A program made the position numbers and the translations under genes. The notes beneath the pieces are model-generated. The model had not been told where the DNA came from. It saw only the letters and a program-made list of their open reading frames with translations, and did not search any database. A stretch of DNA of 62,877 nt from Bacteroidales bacterium (GTDB lineage Bacteria > Bacteroidota > Bacteroidia > Bacteroidales > UBA932), in assembly GCA_024401925.1 (NCBI GenBank), contig JAKSKD010000010.1:1-62877 (forward strand). Direction: 5' to 3'. Below are positions 28,710-50,627 of the stretch, in pieces. Position 1 is the first letter of the stretch, and each line of letters begins with the position of its first letter.

Positions 28710-29516
28710 ATGAAAAACATCGCAAATAATCTATATGGGTGGCAATCGTTTGTAATACACATTTTCGTGGTCCCGTTTTTTCTTTTTGACTATATTCTCC
28801 TGTGCAGACCATTCGGAATGGACTCAGCGCTTGATATGGGACGGGGACTGTATGTATTCAACCTGACAATGCTCTGCTGCATCGTTTTGGCAGTACTGGC
28901 ACTCACCAGAGCGGCTTTTCACTTCCTGGGAAAGAAAATATCACTGAACTACTTGCTGTACAGTTTATGGTGTCTGGGAGAAGACGCCATCTTCAGTGCA
29001 TTCGGAGCAATGTACCTGTCTCTTATGGCGCGCGGGGCAATGCCGTTTTTCGACACCCTTCTTCTCTGCTTCGGATGTTCGATCTCAATCCTCATATTCC
29101 CGTACACTATCACCTGTCTTTCTTTTGTGATAAACGCATATTCCCACGGCAGTATGACGACGATGGACGAGTCCGCGGTGATAAAATTCAAGGATTACAG
29201 GAGGCAACTCAAACTCGCCATCGCATCTGACTCCATCCTCTATATTGAAGCGGACAACAATTACGTGATCATAAACTATCTGAACGCAGGACGGCTGTCA
29301 AACTACACACTGCGTTCTTCTATGAAGGATATCGAGTCCCTGGTGGCAAGCCACGGCATTGTAAGATGCCAGCGGACATATTTCATCAACCCTACTCACG
29401 TCAAGCTGCTGAGCAGAAGCCCCGAAGGGTTTATCTTCGCAGAACTGGACTGTGACGGAGCAAAACGGATTCCCGTATCAAAAACCTACTACGACAGACT
29501 ATCAACAATGCTTTAG
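28710..29516 (+). CDS. membrane-anchored LytTR-family transcriptional regulator
   Basis: A 268-residue protein: four hydrophobic segments in residues 12-145 (for example V-P-F-F-L-F-D-Y-I-L-L), then a LytTR DNA-binding domain (about 168-268) with I-L-Y-I-E-A-D-N-N-Y-V and R-C-Q-R-T-Y-F-I-N-P, which are family hallmarks. There is no receiver domain; a membrane-embedded sensor directly joined to LytTR is a one-component design. It sits between the two halves of the biosynthetic cluster, divergent from the acyl-ligase operon and convergent with the MATE gene. It is the likely cluster regulator through the direct repeats next to it. Confidence 0.9.
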   Translation: MKNIANNLYGWQSFVIHIFVVPFFLFDYILLCRPFGMDSALDMGRGLYVFNLTMLCCIVLAVLALTRAAFHFLGKKISLNYLLYSLWCLGEDAIFSAFGAMYLSLMARGAMPFFDTLLLCFGCSISILIFPYTITCLSFVINAYSHGSMTTMDESAVIKFKDYRRQLKLAIASDSILYIEADNNYVIINYLNAGRLSNYTLRSSMKDIESLVASHGIVRCQRTYFINPTHVKLLSRSPEGFIFAELDCDGAKRIPVSKTYYDRLSTML

Positions 29517-29556
29517 GACTAACTCTTTCGTAGGCCCCATCACCGTTTAGATCTTG

Positions 29557-31281
29557 TCAAAGTTCTTTGTGCCCGGACTCAAATTCGAGCACAACCATAT
29601 TCTGGTTAAATATGTATTTGTAATCGATATTCTTGCAGAACGCAGATGCCAGAGTAAGCCCCAAGCCTATTTCTGCACCGGAAGAGCGGACAGCATCAAC
29701 CGGATTGAAAGCCATACCATCATCGTGAATCGAGATTTTCACCCCATCTTCACCAGCACTGGCAGCAAGGTCTATGGAAGTGGCATGACCGTGACGGATA
29801 ATGTTGTTGATGAACTCCTCGGCACATACCGCGGCTACATAGACGGTATGAGAAGATATGCCGCGTGATGTCAAGAACCGCCGTAAGGCGGAGACGGCTT
29901 CACTGAGCGAAGAAGTTGTGGTCTGCAAAGTCATATCCAGTACTTCCGCATCATTTTTTAACGGAATAAGGAGAATGGGGCTCAAGCGACGATCCCTATG
30001 CCGGAGTACCATCGTACAGACAGCAATTGACAGACCGGTCACGACTTGACCGACAAAGAATCCAATCCAATTGCCACGCAACAATACGAAAAATACCATA
30101 GGCAGCAGGGTTTGTGCAATGGACAGCAATAACGCCAGACCCTTCCTGTCATAGAACTGGAACGGTGGGAGCAAGTTGCACAACATTGCCTGACAAACTA
30201 TATTCAAGGAGAACAGAGGTACAGCCTTTCTCACCATATCGAGTCCGCTGCCTTCCGTAACGCCAAGCAGAGAGCCTATCTGCGCGGGAAAGAACAGAAG
30301 AATGGCCGTATAAAAAGCAAAGCATACTGCCATAAAGGAATACCCTCTCTTCATCAGCATCAACATTCCACGGCTATCCTCCAAGCCTTTGAGGATTGAG
30401 CCCACGGGCTGAATAGTGCGCAGCGTTCCTGTCAGAATTATCATAGAGAAGGCAAGTAACTGGATACAAACCGCCATCGTCACAAGTCCGTCATCGCCGA
30501 GAAAACGTGAAGCCGCATAATTGTTGCCGATATATTGAACGGACATCAGCACTGTCGAGAAGAAGAGTGGCAACCCGATGGAAAAAATGCGCCCTGATTC
30601 CACTTCGCCCAATTTCATCCGGCAAAGGCGAAGGCTTCCCTTTTTACGAAAATGAGGCATCAGCATCAGGATGCATACTATATACATCACGCAGGTGGCT
30701 GATGCAGCACCTGCAATACCAAGAGAAAAGTACTTGATAAAGACTATGTCGAGCAGGATATTACAAACGTTGCCCACAATGACGGCCCTGGAGACCATTC
30801 CCGGATCACCATCAACGGTTACGAACTGATTAAGTGTCAGCATCAGAAGTTGGGGTGCCGCCGAAATCAGTGTAATACGCATAAATGGGTCAGAAAGAGG
30901 ACGCAATGTGTCGGATTGGCAGAGGAAAGCAGAGATGCTGTCGAAGAAAAGCAATCCGAAAGCCATAATCAGCAATCCAAGCAGCAACGACAATCCCATC
31001 GAAAACGAGAACAACTTATCAGCCGTTTTCCTGTCGCCTTTTCCTATTGACATCCCCGAGAGAATTGTGGAACTTGCCACATATAAGCAGGTCAATGCAA
31101 AAAAAGTCTGAAGCAGAGGTTTGCTCAAATTTACGGCGGCAAGGCCATCCGGTCCTACCAGATTACCGACTATGATGGCATCAACGATATTGGCAATCTG
31201 CGTCGCAGCAACCGTCAGGACAGAAGCCCACAAATACCGGTTGAAGGCTTTGTTTATTAGATTCGATTTCCTTTCTATCAT
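29557..31281 (-). CDS. MATE-family exporter fused to an RsbW/SpoIIAB-like serine kinase domain
   Basis: A 574-residue fusion. Residues 1-430 are a MATE/NorM multidrug exporter with 12 hydrophobic segments (start: A-N-I-V-D-A-I-I-V-G-N). Residues about 445-574 are a HATPase_c_2 domain like the anti-sigma kinases RsbW and SpoIIAB: N-box E-E-F-I-N-N-I-I-R-H-G (488-498), G1 box H-D-D-G-M-A-F (519-525), G2 box I-G-L-G-L-T-L-A (538-545). All ATP-binding residues look intact. MATE proteins exchange drugs for Na+ or H+. The kinase would phosphorylate the STAS protein encoded in the same operon. It is the last gene, 9 bp after the acyltransferase gene. It probably exports the NRPS product. Confidence 0.9.
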   Translation of the reverse strand: MIERKSNLINKAFNRYLWASVLTVAATQIANIVDAIIVGNLVGPDGLAAVNLSKPLLQTFFALTCLYVASSTILSGMSIGKGDRKTADKLFSFSMGLSLLLGLLIMAFGLLFFDSISAFLCQSDTLRPLSDPFMRITLISAAPQLLMLTLNQFVTVDGDPGMVSRAVIVGNVCNILLDIVFIKYFSLGIAGAASATCVMYIVCILMLMPHFRKKGSLRLCRMKLGEVESGRIFSIGLPLFFSTVLMSVQYIGNNYAASRFLGDDGLVTMAVCIQLLAFSMIILTGTLRTIQPVGSILKGLEDSRGMLMLMKRGYSFMAVCFAFYTAILLFFPAQIGSLLGVTEGSGLDMVRKAVPLFSLNIVCQAMLCNLLPPFQFYDRKGLALLLSIAQTLLPMVFFVLLRGNWIGFFVGQVVTGLSIAVCTMVLRHRDRRLSPILLIPLKNDAEVLDMTLQTTTSSLSEAVSALRRFLTSRGISSHTVYVAAVCAEEFINNIIRHGHATSIDLAASAGEDGVKISIHDDGMAFNPVDAVRSSGAEIGLGLTLASAFCKNIDYKYIFNQNMVVLEFESGHKEL

Positions 31282-31290
31282 TCTATACTA

Positions 31291-32553
31291 TTATTTCAGC
31301 GAAAAGGACGGGGCCTTGGCTTCTGAGCTGTAAAGCAGGTCAAAATCCAGTCCGAGATTGACTATCTCCTTGAGGAAAGCATTGAAATACACATCCTCGC
31401 GCCAATCCTGCATGAAGACTATGTAGAACCAGCCGTCAGCAGCCGTCACCTCTATCAGAATGCCTATGCCTACCGGTTCCCCCGCAGGGAACATAGCTTC
31501 TATATGTCTGTCACAGCTTCCGAATGACTTCTTACCCGAATAACTGATAGCGAAGGTGGTCTGCTGGAAGAATGTTTCCATTCCCTTCGCCACGGCAGTG
31601 AACTTATCCTGAAGCGTAGGAAGAGAATTGATAGTTTCGCAGGCTGTCTTAATACCTGTTACGGTACGAAGCAGAATGCTTGGGTCCGAAAGGTAGAGTA
31701 TATCGCCGCGCATAGAAGTATTCTGCATATCGATCGGCATATTCCTCATAGAGTGCTCATAGACAAGCGGAAGAGTCGTCACCATATTGTGATGGGATTT
31801 CTCTGCTCCCAAAACGTTGCGGTAGTCACAATATACCTGACTGATTATCGGATCTTCTGCGTCCGGATGCAGTTTATCGATAGCACGGCTCATTAGAATA
31901 GACAGAATAGTGTTTGGTGTACCGTCTGTACTTTTGCAGAGCGACATAAGGTGCTTTTCGTTGATGCGTATGTAGTGCATGTGCTGGTGTGAACGTATGA
32001 CGAGGCCCTGATCTTCCAGACGCAAAGCCTTTGCCGGAATTTCGGGCATAGGCAGCAGGTCATCGGTCTCCGGCAGGGGGCTGGTGAACGGGTCGTAGTA
32101 CTCGGCCGGATCTATCGGCGTGCCAGCCAGCCATACTCCGGGCATTTCCACCTCTTCATTGTAACGCAACTTGCAGTAGTAGTACATCAGCGTATGGAGC
32201 ACGGGACCGCGTCCGCGTCCGTCAAAAATGGCGTGGACATTATTGAAAAATATATCCTTACCGTAATATGTCAGCGCAAACAGATGATAGTTCGATTCCT
32301 GACCGCACAGAGTCATCGGCTTGTCGGACTCCTTAACTACCAGCGGAAGGTCATTGTCCATCAAGGAATACCCCTTCTCATCGGCGACAATACGCTTCTT
32401 CAGATAAGGATATCGCGTCATTGTGATATCGAGAGCCTTGCGCAGTGCTTCGCCGTCGATATTTTCCTTCATTTTTACAATGTACCTGAAAGATTTGGAT
32501 ATATTTTCGTTCAGGCAGTAGTAGTCGAGCGTGTCACAGAAAAAGCTTTGCAT
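31291..32553 (-). CDS. second stand-alone condensation-like acyltransferase
   Basis: A 420-residue protein with a weakly conserved condensation/acetyltransferase fold. The catalytic motif is V-H-A-I-F-D-G-R-G (His107, Asp111, Gly112; HxxxDG), and a C-terminal beta-rich half follows. It may be an alcohol- or amine-acetyltransferase of the AATase/PapA type that tailors or off-loads the peptide. It lies 11 bp after the serine-hydrolase gene and 9 bp before the MATE gene in the long operon. It is only distantly similar to the protein at 27213-28556. The acyl donor and acceptor are unknown. Confidence 0.75.
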   Translation of the reverse strand: MQSFFCDTLDYYCLNENISKSFRYIVKMKENIDGEALRKALDITMTRYPYLKKRIVADEKGYSLMDNDLPLVVKESDKPMTLCGQESNYHLFALTYYGKDIFFNNVHAIFDGRGRGPVLHTLMYYYCKLRYNEEVEMPGVWLAGTPIDPAEYYDPFTSPLPETDDLLPMPEIPAKALRLEDQGLVIRSHQHMHYIRINEKHLMSLCKSTDGTPNTILSILMSRAIDKLHPDAEDPIISQVYCDYRNVLGAEKSHHNMVTTLPLVYEHSMRNMPIDMQNTSMRGDILYLSDPSILLRTVTGIKTACETINSLPTLQDKFTAVAKGMETFFQQTTFAISYSGKKSFGSCDRHIEAMFPAGEPVGIGILIEVTAADGWFYIVFMQDWREDVYFNAFLKEIVNLGLDFDLLYSSEAKAPSFSLK

Positions 32554-32564
32554 AATTGCGTATT

Positions 32565-33647
32565 TTAAAGGAGGTGTGAGAAATGTTTCCAGATAAGGTC
32601 AATGTATCTCTGGTCCATATTGGAGTTGCTGGTGAAAACGAGGACTGTTTCCTTTTCCGGATTCACGAATGCATAATTGCCTAACATGCCTTCCATACGG
32701 TAGGTGCCTGACTTTCCCTGCCATACGTAGTAGCCGTAGCCCTGTGAATGGTCATTGGAGGGATCGTTCAGCACAGCAGGATCGGAAGACTTGGTGAATG
32801 CCTGTAACGGACTGGATTCGACAAGTTTGGATGTCATTGTGCCAACCCATTCAGCCGGGAGCAACTGGTTTCCGTTCCATTTTCCATGCTGAAGCAGAAA
32901 CTGTCCCAGTTTGGCAACGTCTTCAGTGCAGAGTGACATGCCCCAGCCTCCAACGCATATTCCTGCCGGACTTTTCTGCCATTCCATGTCGGTGATATGC
33001 AGCGGCTCCAACAGTCTCGGGGTAATGTAATCCATAACGCTTGTGCCGGATGTCTTCTCCAGAATTGCGGCCACTATGTACGAAGAGAAGAAATTGTAGT
33101 AGAACTTTGTGCCCGGCATAGCGGTCTGATTGGATGCGAAGAATTCACTTATCCAGTCGAAGTCTGCATCTGAATCGGTTTTGAAGACGGAAAGAAGCTT
33201 TGGAGTTTCCTCAAGACCGCATGTCATGGTCAGAAGATGGCGTATTTTCATTGCGGAGAGTGTGTCTGAGACGTGTTCCGGCAGTTGTTCCGGAAAATAG
33301 TCTATCACCCTGTCCTCTACACTGAACAGTCCTTCCTCCACGGCAAATCCCACTGCCAGTGCAAGGACGGTCTTGCTTACGGAAAAAACATCGTTTTTGC
33401 TATCGGGCATCTTTCCATCGAACCATTGCTCAAATACGACATTGCCGTGCTCCACTGCCATGATGCTGTACGGCTGCGCCCTGTCGGGGGCGGTGACGGA
33501 TATCGCCTCATTGTAAAAACTTTCTGCTGCTGCAGCCCATTCGGAAGATACTTCGCCACGTGGCAGACTCGTCAGGTCTGTAGCGTCTTTACATCCTGCG
33601 GTGAACAGAACCGTCAGGAATAGAATAACTGATAATACTCTTCTCAT
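32565..33647 (-). CDS. S12 / class C beta-lactamase-like serine hydrolase lipoprotein
   Basis: A 360-residue protein with a lipobox at Cys19 (F-T-A-G-C), so it is membrane-anchored outside the cytoplasm. The catalytic motifs of serine beta-lactamases/DD-peptidases are present: S-V-S-K (Ser89, Lys92) and Y-Y-N (183-185). Family members are DD-peptidases, esterases, beta-lactamases and prodrug-activating peptidases such as ClbP. Its start overlaps the A-T-TE gene by 4 bp, which ties it to the biosynthesis. A role in trimming the exported product, or in resistance, is inferred. Unlike ClbP it has no C-terminal transmembrane helices. Confidence 0.87.
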   Translation of the reverse strand: MRRVLSVILFLTVLFTAGCKDATDLTSLPRGEVSSEWAAAAESFYNEAISVTAPDRAQPYSIMAVEHGNVVFEQWFDGKMPDSKNDVFSVSKTVLALAVGFAVEEGLFSVEDRVIDYFPEQLPEHVSDTLSAMKIRHLLTMTCGLEETPKLLSVFKTDSDADFDWISEFFASNQTAMPGTKFYYNFFSSYIVAAILEKTSGTSVMDYITPRLLEPLHITDMEWQKSPAGICVGGWGMSLCTEDVAKLGQFLLQHGKWNGNQLLPAEWVGTMTSKLVESSPLQAFTKSSDPAVLNDPSNDHSQGYGYYVWQGKSGTYRMEGMLGNYAFVNPEKETVLVFTSNSNMDQRYIDLIWKHFSHLL

Positions 33648-36100
33648 CGTTCGTTTTTCTGCTTGTCAAACAGACGGTCTGCCTCCAGATAGAGGAGTTC
33701 TGTCTCCATAATGTTACGTATGCGGTTGCTGATGACCTTGCGCCCCGTTTCCGACATCATACCGTCGTGATGCTCGGCTATGTCATAGATGGTGAGCTGG
33801 TGGGGCGGAATGAACTTCTGAAGACCGCCGGCCAGTTCCCGCACGATATGAGCGAAATATGTTCGCTGAGATGTCTGCAAATCATCGGCTATCTTCATCG
33901 CCTTGAAATAGTGAACGCGGCCCGTGTATGGCTTGGGCACGAATTCTGCCATGTTCCGGCCTACGCGGCGCGAGTTTTCTATGATTGTCTCTATCATGCC
34001 CCGTTCGCGGAAATCGGCGAACAGAGGACTCTTCTCGTAATACTCCCTGTTGACGCGCTCCACCTGATTGGCAATGACCAGACGCTTGTCGTAGTCGCTG
34101 TTCATGATGTACGCATCGACGAGTATCAGGTTACCCATATCCTCGCCGGCCTCCTTCAGCTGACAGGCCATTTCGTAGGCAATCATGCCTCCGTAGCACC
34201 ATCCGCCCAGATTGTACGGACCGTGAGGCTGCCGTTGCTTCAATATCTCTATGTACTTGGCTGCAATAGCCGGAATTCCTTCAAGGATATCGTCAGGATG
34301 GTAGATGTTGTACTGCTCGATGACTGAGAATGAACAGCAGTCCCTGATGTCGTTCGCCAGTGCGTAATAGGCTTCACTTCCGGTACTGCCGGTATGTATG
34401 AACACGAGAGGTGCCTTGTCTTCGTGCGATGAATATACATAATCCAAAGGAGCCTCAGATGATGTATTTTCCAGAACCCTGGCCATACTGCGCACGGTTG
34501 GATTCTCGTAAATCCGGGCAGGAGGTATATCCTTGTGCAGGGACTTGCCGATTTCAGCGCAGAGACGCATAATCTGGATGGAATCGCCTCCGAGTTCGAA
34601 GAAACTGGAGTCGGCTCCGACATATTCCTTGCTGACGGAGAGCACTTTACTGAACAGTTCTGCGACTCTGTGCTCCATTTCACCTTCGAGCGGCTGCAGG
34701 TCAGAGCGGACTAATGCAGGCAGAGGCAGGTTCTTGCGGTCTATCTTGCCATTGGCATTGATAGGGAACTTGTCCAGATGTATGTATCTGAGGGGAACCA
34801 TATAGCGGGGTAGCCTCTCGTTGAGGAATCTGATGATTTCTTCCGATGCGATTTCCGTACCGTCGGAAGTGTAATAACCGCACAGATACTTGCTGCCACG
34901 ACCATTGTCAACGCCCTGGACTATTGCTCCGGTAATGCCCGGCATCCGTTTCATCATGCTCTCGATTTCGCCCGGCTCAACGCGCTGGCCGTTTATCTTG
35001 AGCATCCAGTCCTTGCGGTTGACGTAGTGGATGATGCCATCTGCATCAATGCGGGCCACATCACCGGTATGCAGCCATCCGTCTCTGTAAAGGGCTGCGG
35101 TACGTTCCGGATCCTTGAAATAGCCTTGGCAGAACGGGCCATTGAGAACCAGCTCACCATCAATATCCGGCGGAACGTCATTGCCTTTCTCGTCAACGAC
35201 ACGTGCGACAATCCTGTTGATTCCGCGTCCAAGAGGAGCCGAATCCGACATCTCAGACACTTCATAGGACATCACGGCACCACCGGTTTCACTCATTCCG
35301 AACATATTGTAAAGAGCATATCCGTCCTGAGAATGTTGTGTCGTCAATTTCTCACCTCCTGTAATTATTGCCCTAAGTGATTTGCTCCGGTTATGGAACA
35401 GTGTCAGGACTGCCGGAGCGATGTGACAGACTGTTATTCCGTGTTCTGCGATGTAATTCTCAATTTTCTCTGCATTTGACTTGCAGGAGTCGCTCAGGAT
35501 GTGGACTGTGCCGCCGCCATACATCACATCAAAATTGCCTATGATTGTAACGAAGTAGAATGGCGATGCCGCGCCGAAGCGTGTGTCCTCGTTGTGCGCA
35601 ATGACCTCCGGCACGCGGGGGTTGTTACCAATGAGCGTGGTATGATTGTGCAGTATTCCCTTAGGATTGCCTGTGCTGCCGGAAGTGTAGATGAGGATTG
35701 CACCGTCGTTTTCGTCAGGATACTGTATGGATGCATTGGCCGCAGGCATAGAGATGATTTCGGACAGGACACTACCGTCTATGTTTAGAGCGCTGTCGCA
35801 GTGCCCGACGATGAAGTCGATTCGCTCCTGCGGAAATTTGTCACCCATAGGTACAACGATACAACGCGAAATCCAGATACCGATTTCCACAGCCATATAT
35901 TCCATACAGCCGGGCAGCTTGATGGTGATGAAAGACTGCGCTCCGATGCCGTGAGCGGCGATATATGCTGCGGTTTTCCGTGCCAGGTTCAGAATTTCAC
36001 CGTAGGTAGTCTCGCGGGTTCCGTCATTATCGACCACGGCCACTCTGTCCGGAAAGTTCAGACAGTTTTCTATTATCCTTTTTATATATGTCGATTCCAT
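33644..36100 (-). CDS. NRPS-like A-T-TE protein with Cys-type thioesterase
   Basis: An 818-residue single-module protein. Adenylation domain about 1-470: L-I-Y-T-S-G-S-T-G (136-144), H-T-G-D (344-347), A10 lysine Lys452. Carrier domain about 475-545 with F-E-L-G-G-D-S (Ser507). Thioesterase about 560-800: G-W-C-Y-G-G with Cys635 in place of the usual Ser, Asp662, and His777 or His778. The region that normally provides Asp235 reads F-Y-F-V-T-I-I, and the A5-type motif is F-G-M-S-E-T-G-G, not Y-G-P-T-E, which points to a substrate without an alpha-amino group. The A-T-TE order is that of the alpha-keto-acid dimerising enzymes RalA and AtrA. It starts 12 bp after the large NRPS. Confidence 0.9.
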   Translation of the reverse strand: MESTYIKRIIENCLNFPDRVAVVDNDGTRETTYGEILNLARKTAAYIAAHGIGAQSFITIKLPGCMEYMAVEIGIWISRCIVVPMGDKFPQERIDFIVGHCDSALNIDGSVLSEIISMPAANASIQYPDENDGAILIYTSGSTGNPKGILHNHTTLIGNNPRVPEVIAHNEDTRFGAASPFYFVTIIGNFDVMYGGGTVHILSDSCKSNAEKIENYIAEHGITVCHIAPAVLTLFHNRSKSLRAIITGGEKLTTQHSQDGYALYNMFGMSETGGAVMSYEVSEMSDSAPLGRGINRIVARVVDEKGNDVPPDIDGELVLNGPFCQGYFKDPERTAALYRDGWLHTGDVARIDADGIIHYVNRKDWMLKINGQRVEPGEIESMMKRMPGITGAIVQGVDNGRGSKYLCGYYTSDGTEIASEEIIRFLNERLPRYMVPLRYIHLDKFPINANGKIDRKNLPLPALVRSDLQPLEGEMEHRVAELFSKVLSVSKEYVGADSSFFELGGDSIQIMRLCAEIGKSLHKDIPPARIYENPTVRSMARVLENTSSEAPLDYVYSSHEDKAPLVFIHTGSTGSEAYYALANDIRDCCSFSVIEQYNIYHPDDILEGIPAIAAKYIEILKQRQPHGPYNLGGWCYGGMIAYEMACQLKEAGEDMGNLILVDAYIMNSDYDKRLVIANQVERVNREYYEKSPLFADFRERGMIETIIENSRRVGRNMAEFVPKPYTGRVHYFKAMKIADDLQTSQRTYFAHIVRELAGGLQKFIPPHQLTIYDIAEHHDGMMSETGRKVISNRIRNIMETELLYLEADRLFDKQKNER

Positions 36101-36112
36101 ACTCTTTCTGTT

Positions 36113-42100: not shown

Positions 42101-45100
42101 GTCCAGCTCGCGATATGTGTATTTCTTATCTTTAAATACGGCTGCAACATTGTCCGGATACTGCCTTGCCGCCTTGCGGAACAGCGACAGTACCGTCTCA
42201 CCGTCATTCTCCCTGACGGACACAGAACGGCCTTTTTCGTTGAAAGAATCCAGAAGGTCAATCATCTTGTCATCGCAGAGGGTCACCTCGCCCAGTCTTT
42301 CTTTAGCAAGCAACTGCTCCACCACGTGACAGACAACTTCGGCAAAGCCCGTCATCATATCCTTGGAGAAGAGACTTTCATCATACTGAACGCGGATTGT
42401 ACCGTCCTGCGCGATGCTTCCTTCCACGAATACTGCAACAGGAAACTTGGCTTTTTTATTCCCAAGTCTCTGCAATTTCATCTCGCCTCCACCGCATACA
42501 TACCGATTGAGTACACCCACCTGATAGGCATACATAATATTGGCAGCATAGCCGAATTTTTCCGCAATGTAAGCGAAAGGATAATCTTCGTTCGAGAGAG
42601 TATCCACAAAAATACCTGACAACTGATGCAAATAATCCTCCACCCTCATTTCCGGGTCAATCGTACTCACCAGCGGCAGTGTATTCACGAACATACCGAA
42701 AGTGTTGGAAAGTTTAAGATTGCTTCTTCCGTTGGAAATGGTGCAGATGCCCACGGTTTCTTCCGCGGTATATTTGCTCACGGCAAGCATCACGGCGGCA
42801 AGGTACAACGATGCCGGTGTAACACCCAGCTTCCTGCACTTTTGCTGCACAGCCTCGAGATTCGTTGATATTGTCACTTCAGCCTCTGCGTGACTGTCAT
42901 CTCCGTCATATCTGTCAGGAAGAAGAGCGGAGGCCTCATCTATCCGGCTCAGTTGCTCAGCGTAGAATTTCTCCGTGGCTGTTTCAATCTTCTGCTCAGA
43001 GACAAAGCGGTAATAGTCATATTTTTCTTCCTCCGGAGAATTCCCGTCAAGGGCATCACACAACTGTTTATAGAATATGTCGATTGACCCACCATCCATT
43101 ATCAGGTGATGGAAATCCGCAAGAAGATGAACGGCAGAAGGAGTCTCAACAATCTCAAACCGGTAGAGAGGACCTTCTTTCAATGCGAACGGACGCACGA
43201 AAGACTTCTTTTCACGCTCCAGGTCATCGTCAGTCATCTTCAGTACCGGAATCTCCGGCACCTTATCGTCCATAGGACATTGGTGAACGTTCCCGTCTTC
43301 ATCATTCTGGAAACGGTTGTTGATATAAGGATGGGCCTTCACAACCTTTTCAAGAGCATCTCTCAACTGAAGGGCTGTGATTCCCTGAGGCATAGTCTGG
43401 CATTCCGGAATATTGTATTGGATGTCTTCCGGATTAGCAGCGCACTCGGAATAAATGCCGAGTTGCGAGAAGGAAAGGGGTGCTGACTTTATTGTCGCCC
43501 CTGTTTTTCCAGACTTATCTTCCACCACTTGCAGCCTTACTGCAAGCTCTCGGATGGTCGGGAAACGCAATATATCACGGACAGGAAGTTCAGCATTCAT
43601 CCTTTCTTTCACGAAAACGGAAAAACGGATGGAAAGCAAGGAAGTCAGACCGATGCTTATCAGGTTTGTCGTTACTCCGAAACCCGTACTTCCCACAATC
43701 TCCGCTACGATATCATAGAGGGCCTGCTCCTTGGCATCGGCAGGCATTATTTTCTCTTCAGCAGCAAGGTCAAAGGCCGGCTCCGGTAGAGATTTCAGGT
43801 CCGTCTTCCCATTTGGGGATACGGGCATTTTCTCCATAGCCACGAAAATGGTAGGCACCATATAGTGTGTGAGGCTCCTGCCCATCTGCTCCTTGAGGGT
43901 CGCAGTGAGTTCTGCTCCCGGTTCCGCTCCGGCATCAGGTACATAATACGCCACCAAATGATCGTGTCCCTCAACGCTCTTTATCATAACCACACCTTCC
44001 CTGACCTGAGGCTGCCTGTTCAGAACGGCCTCAACCTCACCGAGTTCGATACGCAAGCCGTTAAGTTTTATCTGATTGTCCTTTCGCCCGAGAATGATGA
44101 CTTCTCCATCCTCGTTCCAATATGAATAATCCCCCGACTTGTAGCATCGCTCCCCGTGGTAATCAATGAACGCCTCCATCGTCTTGTCCGGAAGGTCGTT
44201 ATATCCGGCCGCCACACCGAGTCCGCCGATGAGGAGTTCCCCTGTCACTCCGACAGGCAGTTCATTGAGATCTTCATCCACGACATATTCCCGGACATTC
44301 AGCAAAGGCCTTCCGATGGTAATATGCTCCGAATGTGTCAATTCTTTGCCGTTACAGCTGACGCTTATCTCCGTAGGTCCATAAGTGTTGAACAGACGGG
44401 CACCTGGAGCCAGTTCCTTGATCTGCGGCAGGAGGGTCGGCGGATATTTTTCACCGCCGAGCACAATGAACTTGCACTTTGAAAGTGCCGTCCTGAAATC
44501 CGGAAGGTCGAGGAACATCTTGAGACGGGAAGGGGTGCCGCTGAAGGCGTCCACACCGGTTCTGAGCATCAGTTCGGCAAGAGCGGACGGATCATTTACT
44601 TGCGACTCGTCGGCAAACACAAGAGTCATTCCATTGAAAAGAGAAGACCCTATCTCCTTGAGCGAAAGGTCGAAACTGACAGTAGTGATGCAGAGCATCG
44701 TCCTGCATTCGTTAACCAAAGCGTGGAAATGCCGATTCTCTTTGTGATCGGTCAGGTAGTTGCAGATACCGATATGACGGAGCATAACCCCTTTGGGACG
44801 TCCTGTGGAACCGGATGTGTAGATGAGGTAGGCAAGGGAATCACTGTCCTGACAGATATTCGGATTCTCCTCACCGTAGCCGGATGCAAGCAAATCCTCG
44901 ATATCGAGGGCACGGTCACCATACTCCGACATCTTGTCCGCAGTGGTGATGACAAATCGTGCGTGGCTGTCTTCGGTGATGAGTTTAATACGCTCTGCAG
45001 GATATTCGGGGTCGCAAGGGATATAGGCCGCACCAGTTTTCATCACGCCGAACATAGCGATAAGATGCCAGCTCTTACGAGGAAGCAGCAGGCAAATACG

Positions 45101-46546
45101 GTCACCTGGTGTCACGCCTTTTCCTATCAGCGCGTGAGCAAGTTTGTTGGCATTCGCATTGAGCTCGCGGTAACTGAGAGTCTCGTTGCAGGCTATGACG
45201 GCAGTTGCGTCAGGAGTCTGTTCTGCCCAGTATTCTACACTCTTGTGGAACAGAGGGAAACGTACGGCGGAAGCATCGAGACAAGTCTGGCGCATTGCCG
45301 CGACCTCTTTCTTCTGGCGCTCGCTCATTATCGACACGGCAAGCAGTCTCCCGTCAGGATCTTCGAGGAAATGTGAAATAACGGCATCCATTGACTCCGC
45401 AAAGCGCCCGACCAGTCCGGCGGAATACCTGGCTGCGTCGTAGTTGATGACAATTGCGGGTTTGCCTTCCACGTTGTGTATCGTAATGGTCAAAGGGAAC
45501 GAGTGACTGTTCCTCCGCATCGGTTCCGCCTTCACTTCAGTGCCGCGCACCTGAAATGTATTGCCCAACGTTCCGTACTGATAAACGAAACGGACATTCT
45601 GCTCTATCCCATAATCGCGAGACAGCGAAGCAAAAGAATACTCCTCGTGCTCACGGGTTTTCATAAACATCTCGCGAACACCGTATATGAACTCCCGGAC
45701 ACAAACGTCTTCAAGCTTGCAAACAAGAGGGAGGGTGTTGATGAACATTCCCACAACTCCCCGGCTCAAAGGATTGAGACGACCGTTACTGATGGTCGTC
45801 ATAAACAGTTCCTTAGTGTTGGCAAAGCGTCCCAAAGTGTAGAACGAGGCCGCCATAAACAGCGCGGACGGTGCGGTGCCAAGCGCTTTGGCCTTAGCCA
45901 ATACATCAGTCGCAGTCACAGGCTGCACCAATTCTGCGTGGGGCCCATTTTCTCCACTGAGATCCGATGGGAGCGACGTTGACGTGACTCCGCCACCCAG
46001 CATCTTGTCAAAATATGCTTTGTGATCTGTCTTATCCGCATGCTGCGCATCTGAAAAATCCCTGTAGGAATGTGGCTCTGCAGACGGACGGATGCCTTCA
46101 ATGGCCGCGCATATCTCATTCATCAGAATATTAAGGGAGGCACCGTCATACACAAGATGGTGGAAATCCAGCAAAAGTGAGACGCAGGAAGGGGCCGCAA
46201 GTACCTGAGCCCTGTAAAGCGGACCGCAGCTGATGTCGAACACGCGAATGAAATTCTGTTTTACGGTCTCAATATCATCGTCTCCAACATTCAGTACTTC
46301 AACCACTGCTTTGCATTCATCTGCATAGACCTGCATCGGGCTGCCGTCCCTGTCCTCAAAATGTGAGAACAGCACAGGATGGCACTCCAAAACGCTACAC
46401 ACCGCTTCAGCTACATCTTCAGGGGCGAAGGAAACAGGGAAAGAAATAATTTTTGGATTGTTGTATCGAAGATTTTCAGGGTCAATGATACAATCAAAAT
46501 AAACCCCCTGTTGCTCGCAGGTGATCGGAAACATTCTTTTGCTCAT
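36113..46546 (-). CDS. three-module NRPS: C-A-T-C-A-T-C-A-T-reductase
   Basis: A 3477-residue synthetase. C1 H-H-L-V-Y-D-G (129-135); A1 (573-586 ATP loop, F-D-L-S-L-K at 625); T1 Ser969. C2 H-H at 1146; A2 (about 1599; F-D-A-N-M-M at 1645); T2 Ser1979. C3 H-H at 2176; A3 (2625; F-D-L-S-V-G at 2677); T3 M-G-G-T-S with Ser3020. Terminal reductase about 3100-3477: T-G-A-T-G-F-L-G (3111-3118) and Y-T-A-S-K (Tyr3269, Lys3273). No epimerase or thioesterase is present. The product would be released by NAD(P)H reduction as an aldehyde, alcohol or cyclic imine. A condensation domain at the N-terminus implies an N-acyl or aminoacyl starter delivered in trans. My pocket readings are DLKSILTVSK, DAMFLVGVFK and DLGSVTTMGK; I do not assign amino acids. 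Confidence 0.95.
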   Translation of the reverse strand: MSKRMFPITCEQQGVYFDCIIDPENLRYNNPKIISFPVSFAPEDVAEAVCSVLECHPVLFSHFEDRDGSPMQVYADECKAVVEVLNVGDDDIETVKQNFIRVFDISCGPLYRAQVLAAPSCVSLLLDFHHLVYDGASLNILMNEICAAIEGIRPSAEPHSYRDFSDAQHADKTDHKAYFDKMLGGGVTSTSLPSDLSGENGPHAELVQPVTATDVLAKAKALGTAPSALFMAASFYTLGRFANTKELFMTTISNGRLNPLSRGVVGMFINTLPLVCKLEDVCVREFIYGVREMFMKTREHEEYSFASLSRDYGIEQNVRFVYQYGTLGNTFQVRGTEVKAEPMRRNSHSFPLTITIHNVEGKPAIVINYDAARYSAGLVGRFAESMDAVISHFLEDPDGRLLAVSIMSERQKKEVAAMRQTCLDASAVRFPLFHKSVEYWAEQTPDATAVIACNETLSYRELNANANKLAHALIGKGVTPGDRICLLLPRKSWHLIAMFGVMKTGAAYIPCDPEYPAERIKLITEDSHARFVITTADKMSEYGDRALDIEDLLASGYGEENPNICQDSDSLAYLIYTSGSTGRPKGVMLRHIGICNYLTDHKENRHFHALVNECRTMLCITTVSFDLSLKEIGSSLFNGMTLVFADESQVNDPSALAELMLRTGVDAFSGTPSRLKMFLDLPDFRTALSKCKFIVLGGEKYPPTLLPQIKELAPGARLFNTYGPTEISVSCNGKELTHSEHITIGRPLLNVREYVVDEDLNELPVGVTGELLIGGLGVAAGYNDLPDKTMEAFIDYHGERCYKSGDYSYWNEDGEVIILGRKDNQIKLNGLRIELGEVEAVLNRQPQVREGVVMIKSVEGHDHLVAYYVPDAGAEPGAELTATLKEQMGRSLTHYMVPTIFVAMEKMPVSPNGKTDLKSLPEPAFDLAAEEKIMPADAKEQALYDIVAEIVGSTGFGVTTNLISIGLTSLLSIRFSVFVKERMNAELPVRDILRFPTIRELAVRLQVVEDKSGKTGATIKSAPLSFSQLGIYSECAANPEDIQYNIPECQTMPQGITALQLRDALEKVVKAHPYINNRFQNDEDGNVHQCPMDDKVPEIPVLKMTDDDLEREKKSFVRPFALKEGPLYRFEIVETPSAVHLLADFHHLIMDGGSIDIFYKQLCDALDGNSPEEEKYDYYRFVSEQKIETATEKFYAEQLSRIDEASALLPDRYDGDDSHAEAEVTISTNLEAVQQKCRKLGVTPASLYLAAVMLAVSKYTAEETVGICTISNGRSNLKLSNTFGMFVNTLPLVSTIDPEMRVEDYLHQLSGIFVDTLSNEDYPFAYIAEKFGYAANIMYAYQVGVLNRYVCGGGEMKLQRLGNKKAKFPVAVFVEGSIAQDGTIRVQYDESLFSKDMMTGFAEVVCHVVEQLLAKERLGEVTLCDDKMIDLLDSFNEKGRSVSVRENDGETVLSLFRKAARQYPDNVAAVFKDKKYTYRELDGMTDRIGGLIYGKVKDCGKQEPVVSILIPRNEYMFILPLAAMKAGCAYQPLDPSYPKERLNFMVKDADAALLIADDELAGLIDEYKGEVVLTGNLSDISMEEIPADSLTPQSLFILLYTSGSTGVPKGVMLEHQNLVAFIRWYCRYYDLRPEHNVAAYASFGFDANMMDLYPALTTGATVHIIPEELRLDLIAINDYFEANGITHSFITTQVGVQFLLNTENHSLKHLSVGGEKLVSVNPATGYTFHNGYGPTECTVFSTTLPVLRKEPNIPIGKPTDQLDCYVVDKQLHRLPVGAAGELIIVGGQVGRGYLNRPDKTAEVFFTMNGKRAYHSGDIVRYRQDGNIEFVGRKDGQVKIRGFRIELKEVEAVIRGFDGIKDVTVQAFDDPNGGKFIAAYVVSDSEVDINALNSFILEQKPPYMVPAATVQIESIPLNVNQKVDKKALPKPELKPNGSSSEKPAAPLNALEMELKSIIASVINTENFSITDILGYVGLTSISSIRLATLVYKKYGITLNPRDLVKSGTLQGIENEILHIWMNGGAGRPGDVSGQHSADDSLSEGNSAEAIYSAPLTFPQQGVYMDCQMNPETTMYNIPKMLEFPRGTSAEDLCNAVRKVIVAHPALFCNFFQTDEGIVMRQGDMSRFEAPVRTVAVEEIDGIRQTFVRPFNLEKDPLVRTEIYCVQDGPVYLLMDMHHLVADGGSLDIVIRQILDVLEGRDIEAENCSYLQFANEQNVKAAQGGLNDSKAFFDGMFSGYEAAANVPADKSSNEDGLPQHITAPIPESLLKLELPVGVTQAHFWFAAFNYALSRFANTKDVYTAFISSGRQEIKIADTVGMFVNTLPCAVHIKEQTVAEFLREVSDAFFGSLEHENYPFARIASDYDFKGCASFAYQMGVLSNYSIGGEEVVQSTMSLSKAKVPFSIFIQNVKGIPSVDAEYDDSQYSRELALHFAESIVATAEHFAADMNAKVKNVSIMSERQRLEVEGMHSVNEDMSFPVRTFHEGIERWAERTPDELALMACDRDMTYREYNSEANRIGRALMARGLQKGDRVVLLLPRRSYYLTSMFAVMKCGAAFIPMDPEYPADRIEYILNDSEGRFVITTSDRTAFYSDRAIDINDLLKEAKDLPDGNLDIKVDPHDLAYLIYTSGSTGRPKGVMIEHLGAASFLTFYKSDTNFGSDSNANRFGLCQSTVSFDLSVGEIGVQVFNGDTVVFANEDEIMSPVEMVKLCRRTGTQTISGTPSRLAVNLEFDEYYKLVKEQMKCVVTGGEKLPGALLDELEKMDVYIINTYGPTETTMGSSAGVLNGTREIHVGKPFTNYTYQVLDSDRNELPVGVMGELCIGGIGLARGYNNMPERTAETFIEWQGKRIYRTGDYAMWTKDGNVIIMGRTDNQVKLNGLRIELGEIETVMSQQPGIRQCVAVIKKLGSIDKLIGYYTVDETVTDIPVQEYEDKVRAEMSVRLTPYMVPGIFVRLDEMPLTPVGKTDVKRLPMPEFRSGEYTVPKNDIEKSFCDIFSRILKVERVGAEDNFFEMGGTSLVAMQLIAEAAKAGYAIIYKNVFDNATPRQLAKMLKPELYGNEDAGRRNLPMIDEIEDYDYSQLDAVLAANILDTFRQGTCYERMGDVFLTGATGFLGIHVLHNLIERSDVPHIYCLVRGGRSISAESRVRTLLFYYFGKKYEEQFGERIVVVDGDLTDPEAFEKFDKHIDVVFNCAANVKHFSAGTDIEDINIKGCQNCIDLCVRTGARFIQTSTGSVAGLTVSETPVAPHFLNERDLYYGQQLTSKYTASKFLAERAVLDAVRNRGLKGKVMRLGNLSARSTDGEFQINFRTNNAMAALKAYQTLGCIPYEKDCGYSEFSPINEVADAIVRLSLTPDGCTVFQPGNVHWPPYGDIIDCMNHIGIPIERVESEEFQRRLAIAMQDPEKSELVQSLVAYKEENDGLFRVANGWETKAYTAQVLLRLGFRWSFTTWDYVEKYLRCLQGLGVFDSDFTR

Positions 46547-46566
46547 ACGTTGGGTTTGTACAATAA

Positions 46567-46869
46567 TTATTTGATTATGAACATCCTGTCGAAATGCGTA
46601 ACCTTGAGTACCTCCATAATGTTCTCATTCACACCGAGCAAAGTTATCTGCTGTCCTTGTGCCGCGCTTGCCTTGCGCAAACGCAGGAACACACGCAAAC
46701 CGGAACTGGCTACATAATCAAGCGCCGTGCAATCGATTGTTATCGGCTTTGAAGCGAGCGCCTCGAGCTCAATAATAGAAGGTTCGGCATTCTCAGCTGC
46801 CTGTGTGTCAAAACTGCCGCACATAGTGACGACAACTGCTTCAGTGTTGTTTTGAATCTTAATTTCCAT
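46567..46869 (-). CDS. STAS-domain anti-sigma-factor-antagonist-like protein
   Basis: A 100-residue single STAS domain. The phosphorylation loop reads D-Y-V-A-S-S-G-L-R (51-59), with Ser55/Ser56 in the place of the SpoIIAA/RsbV phosphoserine. Such proteins are phosphorylated by RsbW-like kinases and dephosphorylated by SpoIIE/RsbU phosphatases. A phosphatase gene lies 11 bp upstream, and a matching kinase domain is fused to the MATE exporter at the end of the same operon. The NRPS gene starts 20 bp downstream. No sigma factor gene is in the cluster, so the target is unknown. Confidence 0.92.
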   Translation of the reverse strand: MEIKIQNNTEAVVVTMCGSFDTQAAENAEPSIIELEALASKPITIDCTALDYVASSGLRVFLRLRKASAAQGQQITLLGVNENIMEVLKVTHFDRMFIIK

Positions 46870-46880
46870 ATTTCTATAAA

Positions 46881-48566
46881 TTAATTATTATCATTTTTTA
46901 TATATCTCAAACACAGCATAGTAATATCATCACTCTGCCCGCTTCCGCTTGAATGACGCTGCAGACAAGCCAGAACGTCATTTACCAGAGCCGCCGCGTT
47001 CTCGCACGAAGACTTCCCGGCAAAGTCCAGGAGACGCCCCTTCCCGAATTCGTGACCCTGTGCATCCATAGCTTCCGTCACCCCGTCCGTAAATAAAAGC
47101 AGGTAGTCTCCGGGGTTTAAGACAGTTGATACAGTAACGAATTCCTCCCCTTCGTATATGCCGAGGGCTATATTCTCAGAATCTTGGAAAAACTCCGCCC
47201 GGCCATCACGAAGCAATATGGGAGCATCGTGGCCGGCATTGATATATTCCAGTTTTCCATTTTTCAAATCGAGACAGCCGAGCCATAATGTCACGAAACG
47301 GCACTGTGCGTTGTCGGTGCACAAAGAAATATTCATCTGCCGTGCGGCATCCGCCAGAGGCATCTCCGCCGCCATACTGCGGAACAGATAATGTGTAGCG
47401 GCCATAAACAAGGATGCCTGCACACCCTTGCCGCTGACATCCCCTATGCAGAAGAATAATTTGTCTTCACGGGTGAAATAGTCATACAAATCCCCTCCCA
47501 CCTTTCTTGCCGGATGCAGGCAAGCCGCTATATCAATGCCATTCCGCTCGGGGAAAGGAGGAAAAATATGTGGAACAAGCTCGTTCTGAGCTCTTTCAGC
47601 GAGAGACATCTCATTTTCCAAAACGGCTTTCTCCTTCTCGACCCGCTGCTGTTCCCTAACAAAAGGACTTGCAACATAACGAACAGAATACCTGATGGCC
47701 AAATATACTGTCACGAACATCAGAATAAGAATCAGTGCCATAGATATCAATGCCTGACGGACTTTCCTTCTGATAATCCTTTTGTCTGCGGAAATGACTA
47801 CATCCCAGCCTATATTATCAATTACGTCTTCTTGCACGATCATATCCTCAGGAGATAGTTCCAGAATATAAGCATCAGGGGCAACGACCATTGTTCCGTC
47901 GGGCTTGTAGATGCTGATATCGGCATCTTGTCTCAATTTGTACCCCTTGACAAATGATGTAAGTTCCTGTTCAAGGACAATGGAATAAGCCATCCCGAAT
48001 ATTCCTCCCTCACTGTCGGCCAGCGGCACAAAATAACATATTGCCCTTTGGCCATCGGTATATTCCGTGGAAAGAGAGCCCCAGAACGATTCACCTTTAA
48101 CGTAGCAGTTCACCCAATCGGCATCGCTATCCAGTTCTTTGCCATTGATATACGTTTCCAATAATAAGCCGCTGCTATCAACATAAGCCCCACGTTCGTA
48201 ATAACCGTCCGCGCAAGGAATCCTTTCGTTATCAAAAATCGCATAGACTCCCCAAACATCCCCGACGGATTCAAGATAGTTAATGAACAGGGTATCGAGA
48301 GCTGCCTGGCCCTCTTCATTGAACTGTGACACAACTTCCGCCAGAATTCTGGTAGTAGACTCCACCCTCAGCAATTTCTGCTCCATAATGCGCGTGATGG
48401 CGGTGAGATCATCGGAAAATCTGTCATTGATCAGTTCCTCATAATCATTCCGGATGCGGAAGGCAACCATCAGCATTACAACGGAAGAAATAAGAATGAC
48501 CACGGAAGAGATAATCGTTGTCATCCTGATTTGAAGCTGAGTCCTTGAAGTACTATCTTTTTTCAT
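46881..48566 (-). CDS. membrane dCache-type sensor with SpoIIE/RsbU PP2C phosphatase domain
   Basis: A 561-residue protein: transmembrane helix (about 16-36), extracytoplasmic double-Cache-like sensor (about 40-262), second helix (271-291), short coiled coil (305-330), and a SpoIIE phosphatase domain (about 340-556). Metal-binding motifs are intact: G-G-D-L-Y-D-Y (357-363), G-D-V-S-G-K-G (375-381), F-T-D-G-V-T-E-A (492-499), Q-S-D-D-I-T (544-549). It would dephosphorylate the STAS protein encoded 11 bp downstream when its sensor binds a ligand. It follows the receptor gene by 15 bp in the NRPS operon. Confidence 0.92.
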   Translation of the reverse strand: MKKDSTSRTQLQIRMTTIISSVVILISSVVMLMVAFRIRNDYEELINDRFSDDLTAITRIMEQKLLRVESTTRILAEVVSQFNEEGQAALDTLFINYLESVGDVWGVYAIFDNERIPCADGYYERGAYVDSSGLLLETYINGKELDSDADWVNCYVKGESFWGSLSTEYTDGQRAICYFVPLADSEGGIFGMAYSIVLEQELTSFVKGYKLRQDADISIYKPDGTMVVAPDAYILELSPEDMIVQEDVIDNIGWDVVISADKRIIRRKVRQALISMALILILMFVTVYLAIRYSVRYVASPFVREQQRVEKEKAVLENEMSLAERAQNELVPHIFPPFPERNGIDIAACLHPARKVGGDLYDYFTREDKLFFCIGDVSGKGVQASLFMAATHYLFRSMAAEMPLADAARQMNISLCTDNAQCRFVTLWLGCLDLKNGKLEYINAGHDAPILLRDGRAEFFQDSENIALGIYEGEEFVTVSTVLNPGDYLLLFTDGVTEAMDAQGHEFGKGRLLDFAGKSSCENAAALVNDVLACLQRHSSGSGQSDDITMLCLRYIKNDNN

Positions 48567-48581
48567 TGGGACGATATCAAA

Positions 48582-50501
48582 TTAAAAATGAAAGCTGGCT
48601 CCTAATTCAAAGGCTCTCAGATAAGGGTCATAAGTTTTGTAAAGAGTCTCGTTCTCTGCATATTCCACGTCTGTGGAAATACCGTCGAACACGTCGCGGA
48701 GCGAAGCGAACAGAGTCCATTTCTTCAGAACCTTGCTCACGCGCAACGTCAGCAGGGAGCAATCTCCCAAAATAATATTATCCTTATACATTTTGCTGTT
48801 ATACAAGAAGTGGGCATTTATAAGCCAATTCTTCCTCAATTGCACGGATGGAGCGAACATTACATTGAAATAACTTGCCTGATTTCTGTTGAATAAGGAA
48901 TATTTCGTATTGTAGAACAGGTTACCGCCGAACGACATTGAAAAAGGCCCGTATGAATAGTTCAGCATTGCCGTCAAGCCCAGAATATTCCCGTATGAAG
49001 TATTCCGGGGATACACATATGCTACCTTTTTTTCCCCATCGAACAATATGCTGTTTTCTACCACCCTGTCCTGCATATTCAGTTCGGCGCTGATATCAAA
49101 GACTATATGATGCATATCTTTGGACCAATCCGTAATGTATTCCAGATTTGCGGAACCGGTCATCGGTCCCTTGAGATCAGGGTTGCCTTTTCTCCATACT
49201 TGAGCCCCCTCGTCAAATGCCAATTCCGGATAGACGAGATTGTTGGATACCACACCGGCACTTCTTATAAGTTTCAGCCTGACAGCATGATGCTTCACAA
49301 TCTGCCAGAGGATGTCTCCTTCGGCTGTCCAGTCTTGCGACCAACCATTGAACGGCCTCCCGCCGGCAACGCAATAGTTTCTCGAATATCCCTTGTACCT
49401 TCCGTTGAGAATGGCTTTGATATGTTCGCTATTGTAGTCCAGCTTGAGAAAAGGAGAGAAATACAGCATACTGTTCTGCTGATGCCTGTTTGAGATGGAG
49501 CTGAAATTGATTACGGCATCCAGATTCAATTTCCTGTCGGGAATCCTGAATTTTGTCACTGATTTCAACTCCATATTGAATTCATCCTTCTGCCCCGGAT
49601 AATCAGAACTGCCGTGGTAATTCGCATTAACATTGAGTTCTCCCGTCTCAATCGTTCGCGTATAATCCACCATTGCATTGAAAGTCAGCTGTTTCTGATG
49701 ACTTTCAGAGAACGTTCTTTCTGAAGTGCGAAACATCCACCCCGGACCCATTGTCCCTGACATATCTTCAAGTTTGGAAGAGAAGGATTTCGTGGTGTAA
49801 TTTACCTGCATATAGTTCTGCCATACCCACAGTTTGAGAACGTCCTTGTCGCTTATTTTCCACTTCGCATATACTCGCGCCATTTGCCCCAGATAGTTCT
49901 CCCTTGTAGTGTCGGTGCCTGACATAGTGAACGTTTCGGCCATTTTCTCCTGATAAGCCAACTTTGTAGGATAGTATATGTCGAAATTGATATCGGCTCT
50001 CATTTCGAAGCGCTTTCCGTCCGAATAACGGAGGTTTGCCGTAGGCATTACTCCCGTAAAGAGAGAAGACTGCACTGTTGCATCCCCACTGAAGCCTTTT
50101 TCCATCGGACGCGGAACGATGTTGACGGATCCGGAAATTCCGTTTTTAATATGCGCATCGGAAGGTGATGTGCTTATTACAATCTTCTCGATTTCCCTCA
50201 AAAAAGTATTATGCAGGAAGGCATCCTTGGAATCCCCTATCAGCTTGCCGTCCAGTTTTATGTCGAAACGCTCCAAAAAAGTATCGGCATTCCTGTCCAC
50301 CAGTTCAGGAAGCGTCAGGAGATAATCAAGCAAGGCCATATCGGATGGCAGAGAAAGTTTCGATACCCAAATGGTTTTGTTACTGGCCGTTACCTCAACT
50401 TCGTACTCCTGGGCTTGCAGAAGAACGGGAAAAACGGACAAAAAGACAGAAATAAACAGGATGCAAGAGTTTCTCATTAAGTCATTCTTAAAAAAAGACA
50501 T
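48582..50501 (-). CDS. TonB-dependent receptor-like outer-membrane protein, first gene of the NRPS operon
   Basis: A 639-residue protein with a signal peptide (ending L-L-Q-A-Q), a compact plug-like domain (about 40-140, with S-G-S-V-N-I-V-P-R at its end) and a long beta-barrel ending in F-E-L-G-A-S-F-H-F. It lacks the carboxypeptidase-like N-terminal extension of SusC proteins. ATG 50501 is used; ATG 50477 (M-R-N-S-C-I-L-F) is also possible and gives a shorter signal peptide. A receptor at the head of an NRPS operon could take up the secreted product or a metal complex of it, or pass it outward with the MATE pump. The substrate is unknown. Confidence 0.85.
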   Translation of the reverse strand: MSFFKNDLMRNSCILFISVFLSVFPVLLQAQEYEVEVTASNKTIWVSKLSLPSDMALLDYLLTLPELVDRNADTFLERFDIKLDGKLIGDSKDAFLHNTFLREIEKIVISTSPSDAHIKNGISGSVNIVPRPMEKGFSGDATVQSSLFTGVMPTANLRYSDGKRFEMRADINFDIYYPTKLAYQEKMAETFTMSGTDTTRENYLGQMARVYAKWKISDKDVLKLWVWQNYMQVNYTTKSFSSKLEDMSGTMGPGWMFRTSERTFSESHQKQLTFNAMVDYTRTIETGELNVNANYHGSSDYPGQKDEFNMELKSVTKFRIPDRKLNLDAVINFSSISNRHQQNSMLYFSPFLKLDYNSEHIKAILNGRYKGYSRNYCVAGGRPFNGWSQDWTAEGDILWQIVKHHAVRLKLIRSAGVVSNNLVYPELAFDEGAQVWRKGNPDLKGPMTGSANLEYITDWSKDMHHIVFDISAELNMQDRVVENSILFDGEKKVAYVYPRNTSYGNILGLTAMLNYSYGPFSMSFGGNLFYNTKYSLFNRNQASYFNVMFAPSVQLRKNWLINAHFLYNSKMYKDNIILGDCSLLTLRVSKVLKKWTLFASLRDVFDGISTDVEYAENETLYKTYDPYLRAFELGASFHF

Positions 50502-50510
50502 CTTTCAGGT

Positions 50511-50541
50511 TGCCACCTCTCCGACTGCTCTTCTGGTGGCA
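50511..50541 (-). promoter_or_regulatory. inverted repeat in the leader of the NRPS operon
   Basis: A perfect 7-bp inverted repeat (tgccacc / ggtggca, 17-nt loop) sits in the predicted leader between the -7 box and ATG 50501. A second small hairpin (tggt...acca) uses the same right-hand arm, so the two folds exclude each other. I found no match to a riboswitch class I know. Confidence 0.4.
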
Positions 50542-50554
50542 CACCACTACGGTT

Positions 50555-50562
50555 CAAAGATA
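50555..50562 (-). promoter_or_regulatory. -7 box of the NRPS operon
   Basis: The minus strand reads TATCTTTG, a match to TAnnTTTG, 53 bp upstream of ATG 50501. The -33 box is weak (a TTG 25 nt upstream). This is the only good promoter I see before the eight-gene run down to 29557. Confidence 0.6.
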
Positions 50563-50627
50563 GTGTTTTTTTCGGCTCATACTGTCGCAATATAAGTCCA
50601 TATCACACAATTGAGCGGAATATTTTA

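Follow-up and report, generated by a model that had tools for sequence, protein, structure and literature searches.

The 62,877-nucleotide window analyzed here—the whole of contig JAKSKD010000010.1 (C2) of a Bacteroidales bacterium, from a metagenome-assembled genome (MAG) of 1.86 Mb that is 89% complete—carries a nonribosomal peptide synthetase (NRPS) operon with a partner-switching module inside it. Sequence and predicted fold assign three parts to the module: a membrane sensor phosphatase, a STAS protein whose phospho-acceptor serine is present, and, at the C terminus of a MATE exporter, a kinase domain with the Bergerat fold. The switch in the operon is real, conserved in relatives, and probably regulatory. 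For its output, post-translational control centered on the exporter or the NRPS is favored, with a confidence just short of even.

Architecture of the operon

Eight open reading frames, all on the minus strand between 50501 and 29557, make up the operon; the intervals between them are 15, 11, 20, 12, −4, 11, and 9 bp (Table 1). The first-pass annotation had described such a run—spaced by 20 bp or less or overlapping—and had placed a SpoIIE phosphatase, a STAS antagonist, and an RsbW-like kinase in it; the spacing is borne out, and the close-packed trio is real and kept in close relatives.

Table 1. Genes and putative promoter element of the NRPS operon (window coordinates)
Feature	Position	Strand	Basis or remark
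Barrel-like protein, N-terminal hydrophobic stretch	48582..50501	-	First gene by position; barrel nature inferred from sequence
Sensor phosphatase, RsbU role	46881..48566	-	SpoIIE/PP2C domain and hydrophobic spans
STAS protein, RsbV role	46567..46869	-	Pfam, Ser55 at phosphorylation position
NRPS, (C-A-T)x3 and terminal NAD-binding reductase	36113..46546	-	Domain scan
A-T-TE protein	33644..36100	-	Pfam
Beta-lactamase-fold protein	32565..33647	-	Likeness to 3-succinylated cholic acid synthase
Condensation-like protein	31291..32553	-	HxxxDG at 107-112; no Pfam match
MATE exporter fused to RsbW/SpoIIAB-like kinase domain, RsbW role	29557..31281	-	Pfam, profile, fold
Possible -7 promoter element TATCTTTG	50555..50562	-	Consensus match only
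C, condensation; A, adenylation; T, thiolation; TE, thioesterase.

The SpoIIE domain of the second protein (Pfam PF07228, 1.3e-47, 162.7 bits against a cut-off of 25) identifies a PP2C phosphatase. Two hydrophobic spans (18–36 and 273–291) flank a part of ~235 residues and precede the SpoIIE/PP2C domain at 367–555; a dCache_1 match between the spans scores below the family cut-off. The STAS protein matches PF01740 (4.9e-15) and TIGR00377, both over cut-off, and its profile matches known SpoIIAA/RsbV-type structures. Its Ser55 stands at the phospho-acceptor position expected of an antagonist, and the serine is kept in 20 of 20 aligned proteins.

The last protein of 574 residues features MatE (2e-21) and HATPase_c_2 (5.4e-12) matches on one chain, both over the Pfam cut-off. 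Residues 3–445 form a MATE exporter by family and fold, and the kinase domain spans approximately 447–569. This domain is over cut-off for PF13581 and is of the Bergerat type: its profile matches SpoIIAB/RsbW, with histidine kinases close behind, and Bergerat-fold kinases are among the matches listed for its predicted fold. ClbM (PDB 4z3n), a MATE exporter linked to colibactin, has a matched chain of 431 residues, too short for an extra kinase domain, unlike the fused exporter here. Judged by the fused exporter, the genome has its nearest named relatives in Bacteroidales MAGs of horse faeces. A plasmid-borne mobile element was considered and rejected: the 49 plasmid records hit by a tblastn search with the fused exporter include no single site that spans 80% of it, and among the 20 matches listed the coverage is at most 65%, all within the MATE part.

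The NRPS has modular condensation, adenylation, and thiolation domains followed by a release domain, arranged as (C-A-T)x3-R. The operon would make and export a nonribosomal peptide, probably released by the NRPS reductase. The beta-lactamase-fold protein may be an acyl transferase and not a hydrolase because of its likeness to 3-succinylated cholic acid synthase (222 bits, under the cut-off of 800). The first gene, called a receptor in the first-pass annotation, belongs to the operon by position only, since its protein has no Pfam or NCBIfam match and the gene does not precede SpoIIE in L010, L038, L072, or L074 (L numbers denote loci, G numbers genomes); nor is it seen in relatives, and a profile of the protein has no other match among their loci.

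Because of the gene spacing, a single transcript is likely. Strong internal promoters or terminators had been named as evidence that would separate the regulatory genes from the NRPS. No terminator-like minus-strand site lies inside any operon gap. The sigma-70-type promoter scan covered two stretches outside the NRPS interior: 15 promoter-like sites were found at 46400–50900 against 7.9 (sd 2.6) expected from shuffling, and 12 at 29300–36200 against 8.9 (sd 3.2)—an excess in one of the two. Among these sites, matches of the E. coli type (9 of 12) on the minus strand overlap three gaps, at 48580–48552, 46592–46563, and 32591–32562. The full Bacteroides-type promoter pattern has two matches in the window and none at the operon. 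A −7-like element, TATCTTTG, precedes the first gene by ~53 bp; four more minus-strand matches lie inside the operon, and the window holds 38 against 29 expected.

Linkage of the module to NRPS genes

The family sample consists of 159 genomes: SpoIIE is matched in 76 of them, STAS in 113, and HATPase_c_2 in 137 (over cut-off in 95), and 25 have condensation domains. Proximity was counted in the 18 genomes, our own included, that have both an NRPS frame of at least 900 residues and SpoIIE; excluded were G002, G080, G106, G117, G124, and G134, which have only free-standing condensation proteins (frame below 900 residues), and G142, which has an NRPS and no SpoIIE match. Within 5 kb of an NRPS lie 10 of the 38 SpoIIE genes against 0.40 expected (~25-fold), and 8 of the 18 genomes have such a pair against 0.39 expected: 1/1 in genus g1, 2/2 in g2, 1/2 in g4, 4/4 in g16, 0/1 in g15, and 0/8 in g22. 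Any P value from these counts would be too small because the genomes are related and were treated as independent. The pairing is rare at the level of the order: a condensation match occurs in 34 of the 393 genomes sampled, and of the 33 besides our own, at least 3 (G410, G421, G511) have SpoIIE within 5 kb of an NRPS; only some contigs of this sample were read, and the G511 pair rests on a SpoIIE tail cut at a contig end. With this near-pair count, a cassette universal among NRPSs is rejected.

A common SpoIIE–STAS cassette that sits in the operon by chance or hitchhiking would agree with the other 28 of the 38 SpoIIE genes, which are not within 5 kb of an NRPS, and with cassettes beside other gene kinds (L033, L075, L077, L078, L079). 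This explanation is very improbable and was rejected: the proximity counts speak against it, and the linkage persists where the gene order changes (L010, L045). SpoIIE and STAS adjoin the NRPS in five close relatives with readable flanks (L010, L038, L072, L073, L074), the more distant L009 being without a local SpoIIE, and the module-free clusters form one NRPS clade (100/99).

Cluster anatomy and history

Twenty clusters in which SpoIIE and STAS lie no more than 5 kb from an NRPS were compared in a hand tally; this number is no frequency because many were chosen for SpoIIE–NRPS proximity or for the MATE protein. The STAS gene of L018 was seen in a separate reading of the locus, and the exporter of L072–L074 was read from the overlapping loci L006, L007, and L011. 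SpoIIE and STAS are the constant parts of the cassette, a pattern comparable to SypE/SypA (see below). The kinase is carried by the exporter only in seven clusters, by the phosphatase only in eight, by both in two (L040, L054), and is not nearby in three (L042–L044), in which SpoIIE–STAS is divergent from the NRPS. In six clusters, no MATE gene lies in the stretch read (L035, L041, L042, L043, L044, L055). The order varies as well: SpoIIE, STAS, and MATE/kinase precede the NRPS in L010, and in L045 STAS lies ahead of it and SpoIIE closes the run. A barrel-like protein of ~440–450 residues follows STAS in L013, L018, L019, L041, and L057, with Alginate_exp (Pfam) over cut-off in L013, L018, and L057 only. 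Five small genes that were scanned encode phosphopantetheinyl transferases (PPTases): L013, L040, L041, and L055 with the module, and L052 without it.

In the kinase-domain tree, the exporter-fused domains form one clade (97/97) apart from the SpoIIE-fused ones (89/74). The MATE tree places nine plain exporters among the fused ones, including L014 with no NRPS seen, which needs two changes; one fusion and one loss are a possible history, with the root being uncertain. Thirteen of the 14 distinct fused exporters stand beside NRPS-cluster genes (L036 being counted via a carrier/thioesterase fragment), the exception being L046.

The reductase-domain tree has 23 rows labelled as having the module and nine rows in which none was found. 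The partial cases count among the 23, as do L005, whose contig is cut, and L056, which has a very long branch and its cassette 6 kb off. Six of the nine form the module-free clade (100/99), with full 20-kb flanks only for L048, L052, and L053. The other three, L016, L017, and L020, had cut flanks: in L020, a SpoIIE-kinase gene and STAS adjoin the NRPS after all (read as L069), and the only SpoIIE-kinase genes found for L016 and L017 lie on other contigs (L070, L071). Three clusters of the module-free clade have an extracytoplasmic function (ECF) sigma gene close to the NRPS on its PPTase side (L052:5736-6254 and L048:12679-13197 by Pfam; L053:13507-14025 by sequence likeness only), next to a gene for ~400 residues that has no Pfam match in L052. 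Since another regulator stands in this clade, as if swapped in, a regulatory role of the cassette fits.

Our own genome features two further loci of this kind: a second NRPS with STAS and SpoIIE-kinase (G000:C25, L035), and a second MATE-kinase fusion beside the carrier/thioesterase fragment at a contig end (G000:C67, L036). Among the other loci, L033:13318-19138 holds a full kinase, SpoIIE, and STAS module with NMT1-like, tyrosine-phosphatase-family, and acyltransferase proteins and no NRPS seen nearby; L042 and L078 have a comparable NMT1-like gene ahead of SpoIIE, judged by the look of the sequence only. In L056:3267-6346 (G475), two STAS genes flank a SpoIIE-kinase gene, and genes close by look permease-like in sequence; this cassette is ~6 kb from an NRPS, beside other genes.

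Proposed output of the switch

A periplasmic sensor would detect a signal and SpoIIE would then dephosphorylate the STAS protein, which the exporter-borne kinase would re-phosphorylate. Free STAS would be the output, acting within the operon: it would most likely dock on the kinase domain of the exporter and set peptide export (and synthesis) instead of freeing a sigma factor. Control at the exporter is favored because the kinase and the exporter are covalently joined. Where the phosphatase carries the kinase, as in some relatives, STAS would have to work through the NRPS, a different portion of the exporter, or some other target; SypA offers a parallel (see below). The first-pass annotation had seen no sigma factor in the cluster, and none is found among the eight genes (Pfam); TIGR02980, for SigB/F/G-type sigma factors, has 11 matches in the genome and none over cut-off, which speaks against a Sigma-B/F-type switch.

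Several observations weigh against this reading. Of the 20 clusters, 8 carry the kinase on SpoIIE only, 3 have no kinase nearby, and 6 show no MATE gene in the stretch read, so exporter gating is not the output everywhere; the suggestion of the first-pass annotation that the exporter may be the target is favored by the fusion in this operon and does not hold as a general rule. Partial cases exist: STAS and the fused exporter occur in L009 but SpoIIE is not local, the fused exporter of L012 stands by itself on the contig, L015 has SpoIIE and no STAS, and L047 has STAS alone. In L046, moreover, there is a fused exporter with no NRPS nearby. The ECF gene beside the NRPS of the sister clade hints that the slot taken by the cassette is transcriptional. 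A sigma factor could be missing from the assembly because of the incompleteness of the MAG, and the reading as a whole draws on sequence and predicted fold.

Under a transcriptional switch, the kinase on the exporter would keep a transcription factor (the LytTR regulator at 28710–29516 or an ECF sigma) at the membrane until unphosphorylated STAS frees it to transcribe the cluster; this alternative appears somewhat unlikely. The likeness of the kinase domain to RsbW/SpoIIAB would suit it, as would the ECF gene near the NRPS of the module-free clade (L048, L052) and the 11 Sigma70_r2 matches in the genome. One of these, at 14577–14777 of the window, belongs to an ECF gene (14472–15044) that overlaps the next gene and lies 14.5 kb away from the cluster. 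The kinase, moreover, is joined to the exporter instead of being free, the genome has no SigB/F/G sigma over cut-off, and no sigma gene is among the eight; the clusters of relatives were not searched whole for sigma genes. Flux-sensing resistance transporters offer an analogue for the exporter as an input: transport or its blockage would alter the kinase activity of the exporter, and STAS phosphorylation would report export capacity to an output elsewhere. The kinase being on the transporter while a separate periplasmic sensor drives the phosphatase agrees with this, as do the two kinases of L040 and L054, one each on exporter and phosphatase. In 11 of the 20 clusters, however, the exporter does not carry the kinase (8 on SpoIIE, 3 none nearby), and flux sensing is a distinctly improbable account.

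The wider form of the favored reading—an anti-sigma-type kinase on a MATE exporter and a STAS protein set by an outside-sensing phosphatase gate peptide export without a sigma factor, in a cassette common to gut Bacteroidales and, by published description, archaea, the kinase having moved between exporter and phosphatase—is put forward tentatively. If the switch acts on the exporter, an anti-sigma kinase would here serve to control a transporter post-translationally, a use not found described in the open-licence literature. Even a transcriptional switch would help to tell when uncultured bacteria of gut and rumen make their NRPS products, and because kinase and exporter are physically linked, the target of non-sigma STAS proteins becomes directly testable.

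Neighboring genes

The LytTR regulator lies next to the operon end, and free-standing carrier, adenylation, and condensation proteins in a row (within 25262–29516, just downstream of the operon) are divergent from it; free-standing condensation proteins of ~450 residues recur across other genomes of the family. Next to a gene for a YegS-like lipid kinase, 3 kb past the operon, stands another sensor phosphatase (53448–55316; dCache, weak HAMP, SpoIIE); none of the STAS or HATPase_c_2 matches of the genome adjoins this phosphatase. The window also contains a PPTase gene (8064–8711) and an MmeI-type combined restriction-modification protein (57660–60584).

Comparison with known systems

In the parts of the open-licence literature that were available, including PMC9248904, PMC8241843, and PMC8256260, no mention of an NRPS/partner-switch grouping in Bacteroidales and no description of a MATE-kinase fusion was found. 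The first-pass annotation knew of no case in which all three partner-switch parts are embedded in a natural-product operon; two published loci leave this unsupported. Leahy et al. 2010 (PMC2812497) describe a locus of Methanobrevibacter ruminantium M1 (mru_0066-0071) in which a MatE efflux protein, an anti-sigma factor antagonist, and two serine phosphatases stand around the NRPS mru_0068; they propose sensing, control of NRPS expression, and export. The grouping of NRPS, phosphatase, STAS, and MatE is hence already in print for an archaeon, the regulatory guess included, and the operon here is not the first case. The likeness in gene content, taken from the published description, is side by side with differences: the organism is an archaeon, the available text names no kinase in the NRPS locus and none fused to the exporter, and the NRPS has, by the paper's description, two modules compared with three and an A-T-TE protein here. 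A further locus (mru_0513-0516) holds a PPTase, STAS, phosphatase, and anti-sigma kinase, and the NRPS has a full-length relative in Syntrophomonas wolfei (PMC2812497). In a transcriptome under lauric acid, both MatE genes, the PPTase, and the NRPS mru_0351 have positive values in the portion seen (PMC5816558).

The syp locus of Vibrio fischeri, as described in the part of the source available (PMC4517449), is a biosynthesis-and-export locus with the embedded STAS and kinase-phosphatase pair SypA/SypE, SypA acting by a mechanism not known. The STAS protein is likewise controlled by kinase and phosphatase activities; the product is a polysaccharide and not a peptide, both activities reside in one response regulator, and no exporter fusion is described there. 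RsbW-like or HATPase-only proteins that affect natural-product output are known as well: TciK/TciR of Vogesella indigofera, a REC-RsbW protein without RsbV that affects NRPS pigment production (PMC12826045), and SspH of Streptomyces, a single-domain HATPase-only global regulator (PMC9137472), with no embedding in an NRPS operon described in the text seen of either. The closest likeness in parts is to RsbU/RsbV/RsbW and SpoIIE/SpoIIAA/SpoIIAB, whose domains and motifs are shared and whose structures match the kinase and STAS profiles; the system here differs from them by having no SigB/F/G-type sigma over cut-off and by carrying its kinase on a MATE exporter.

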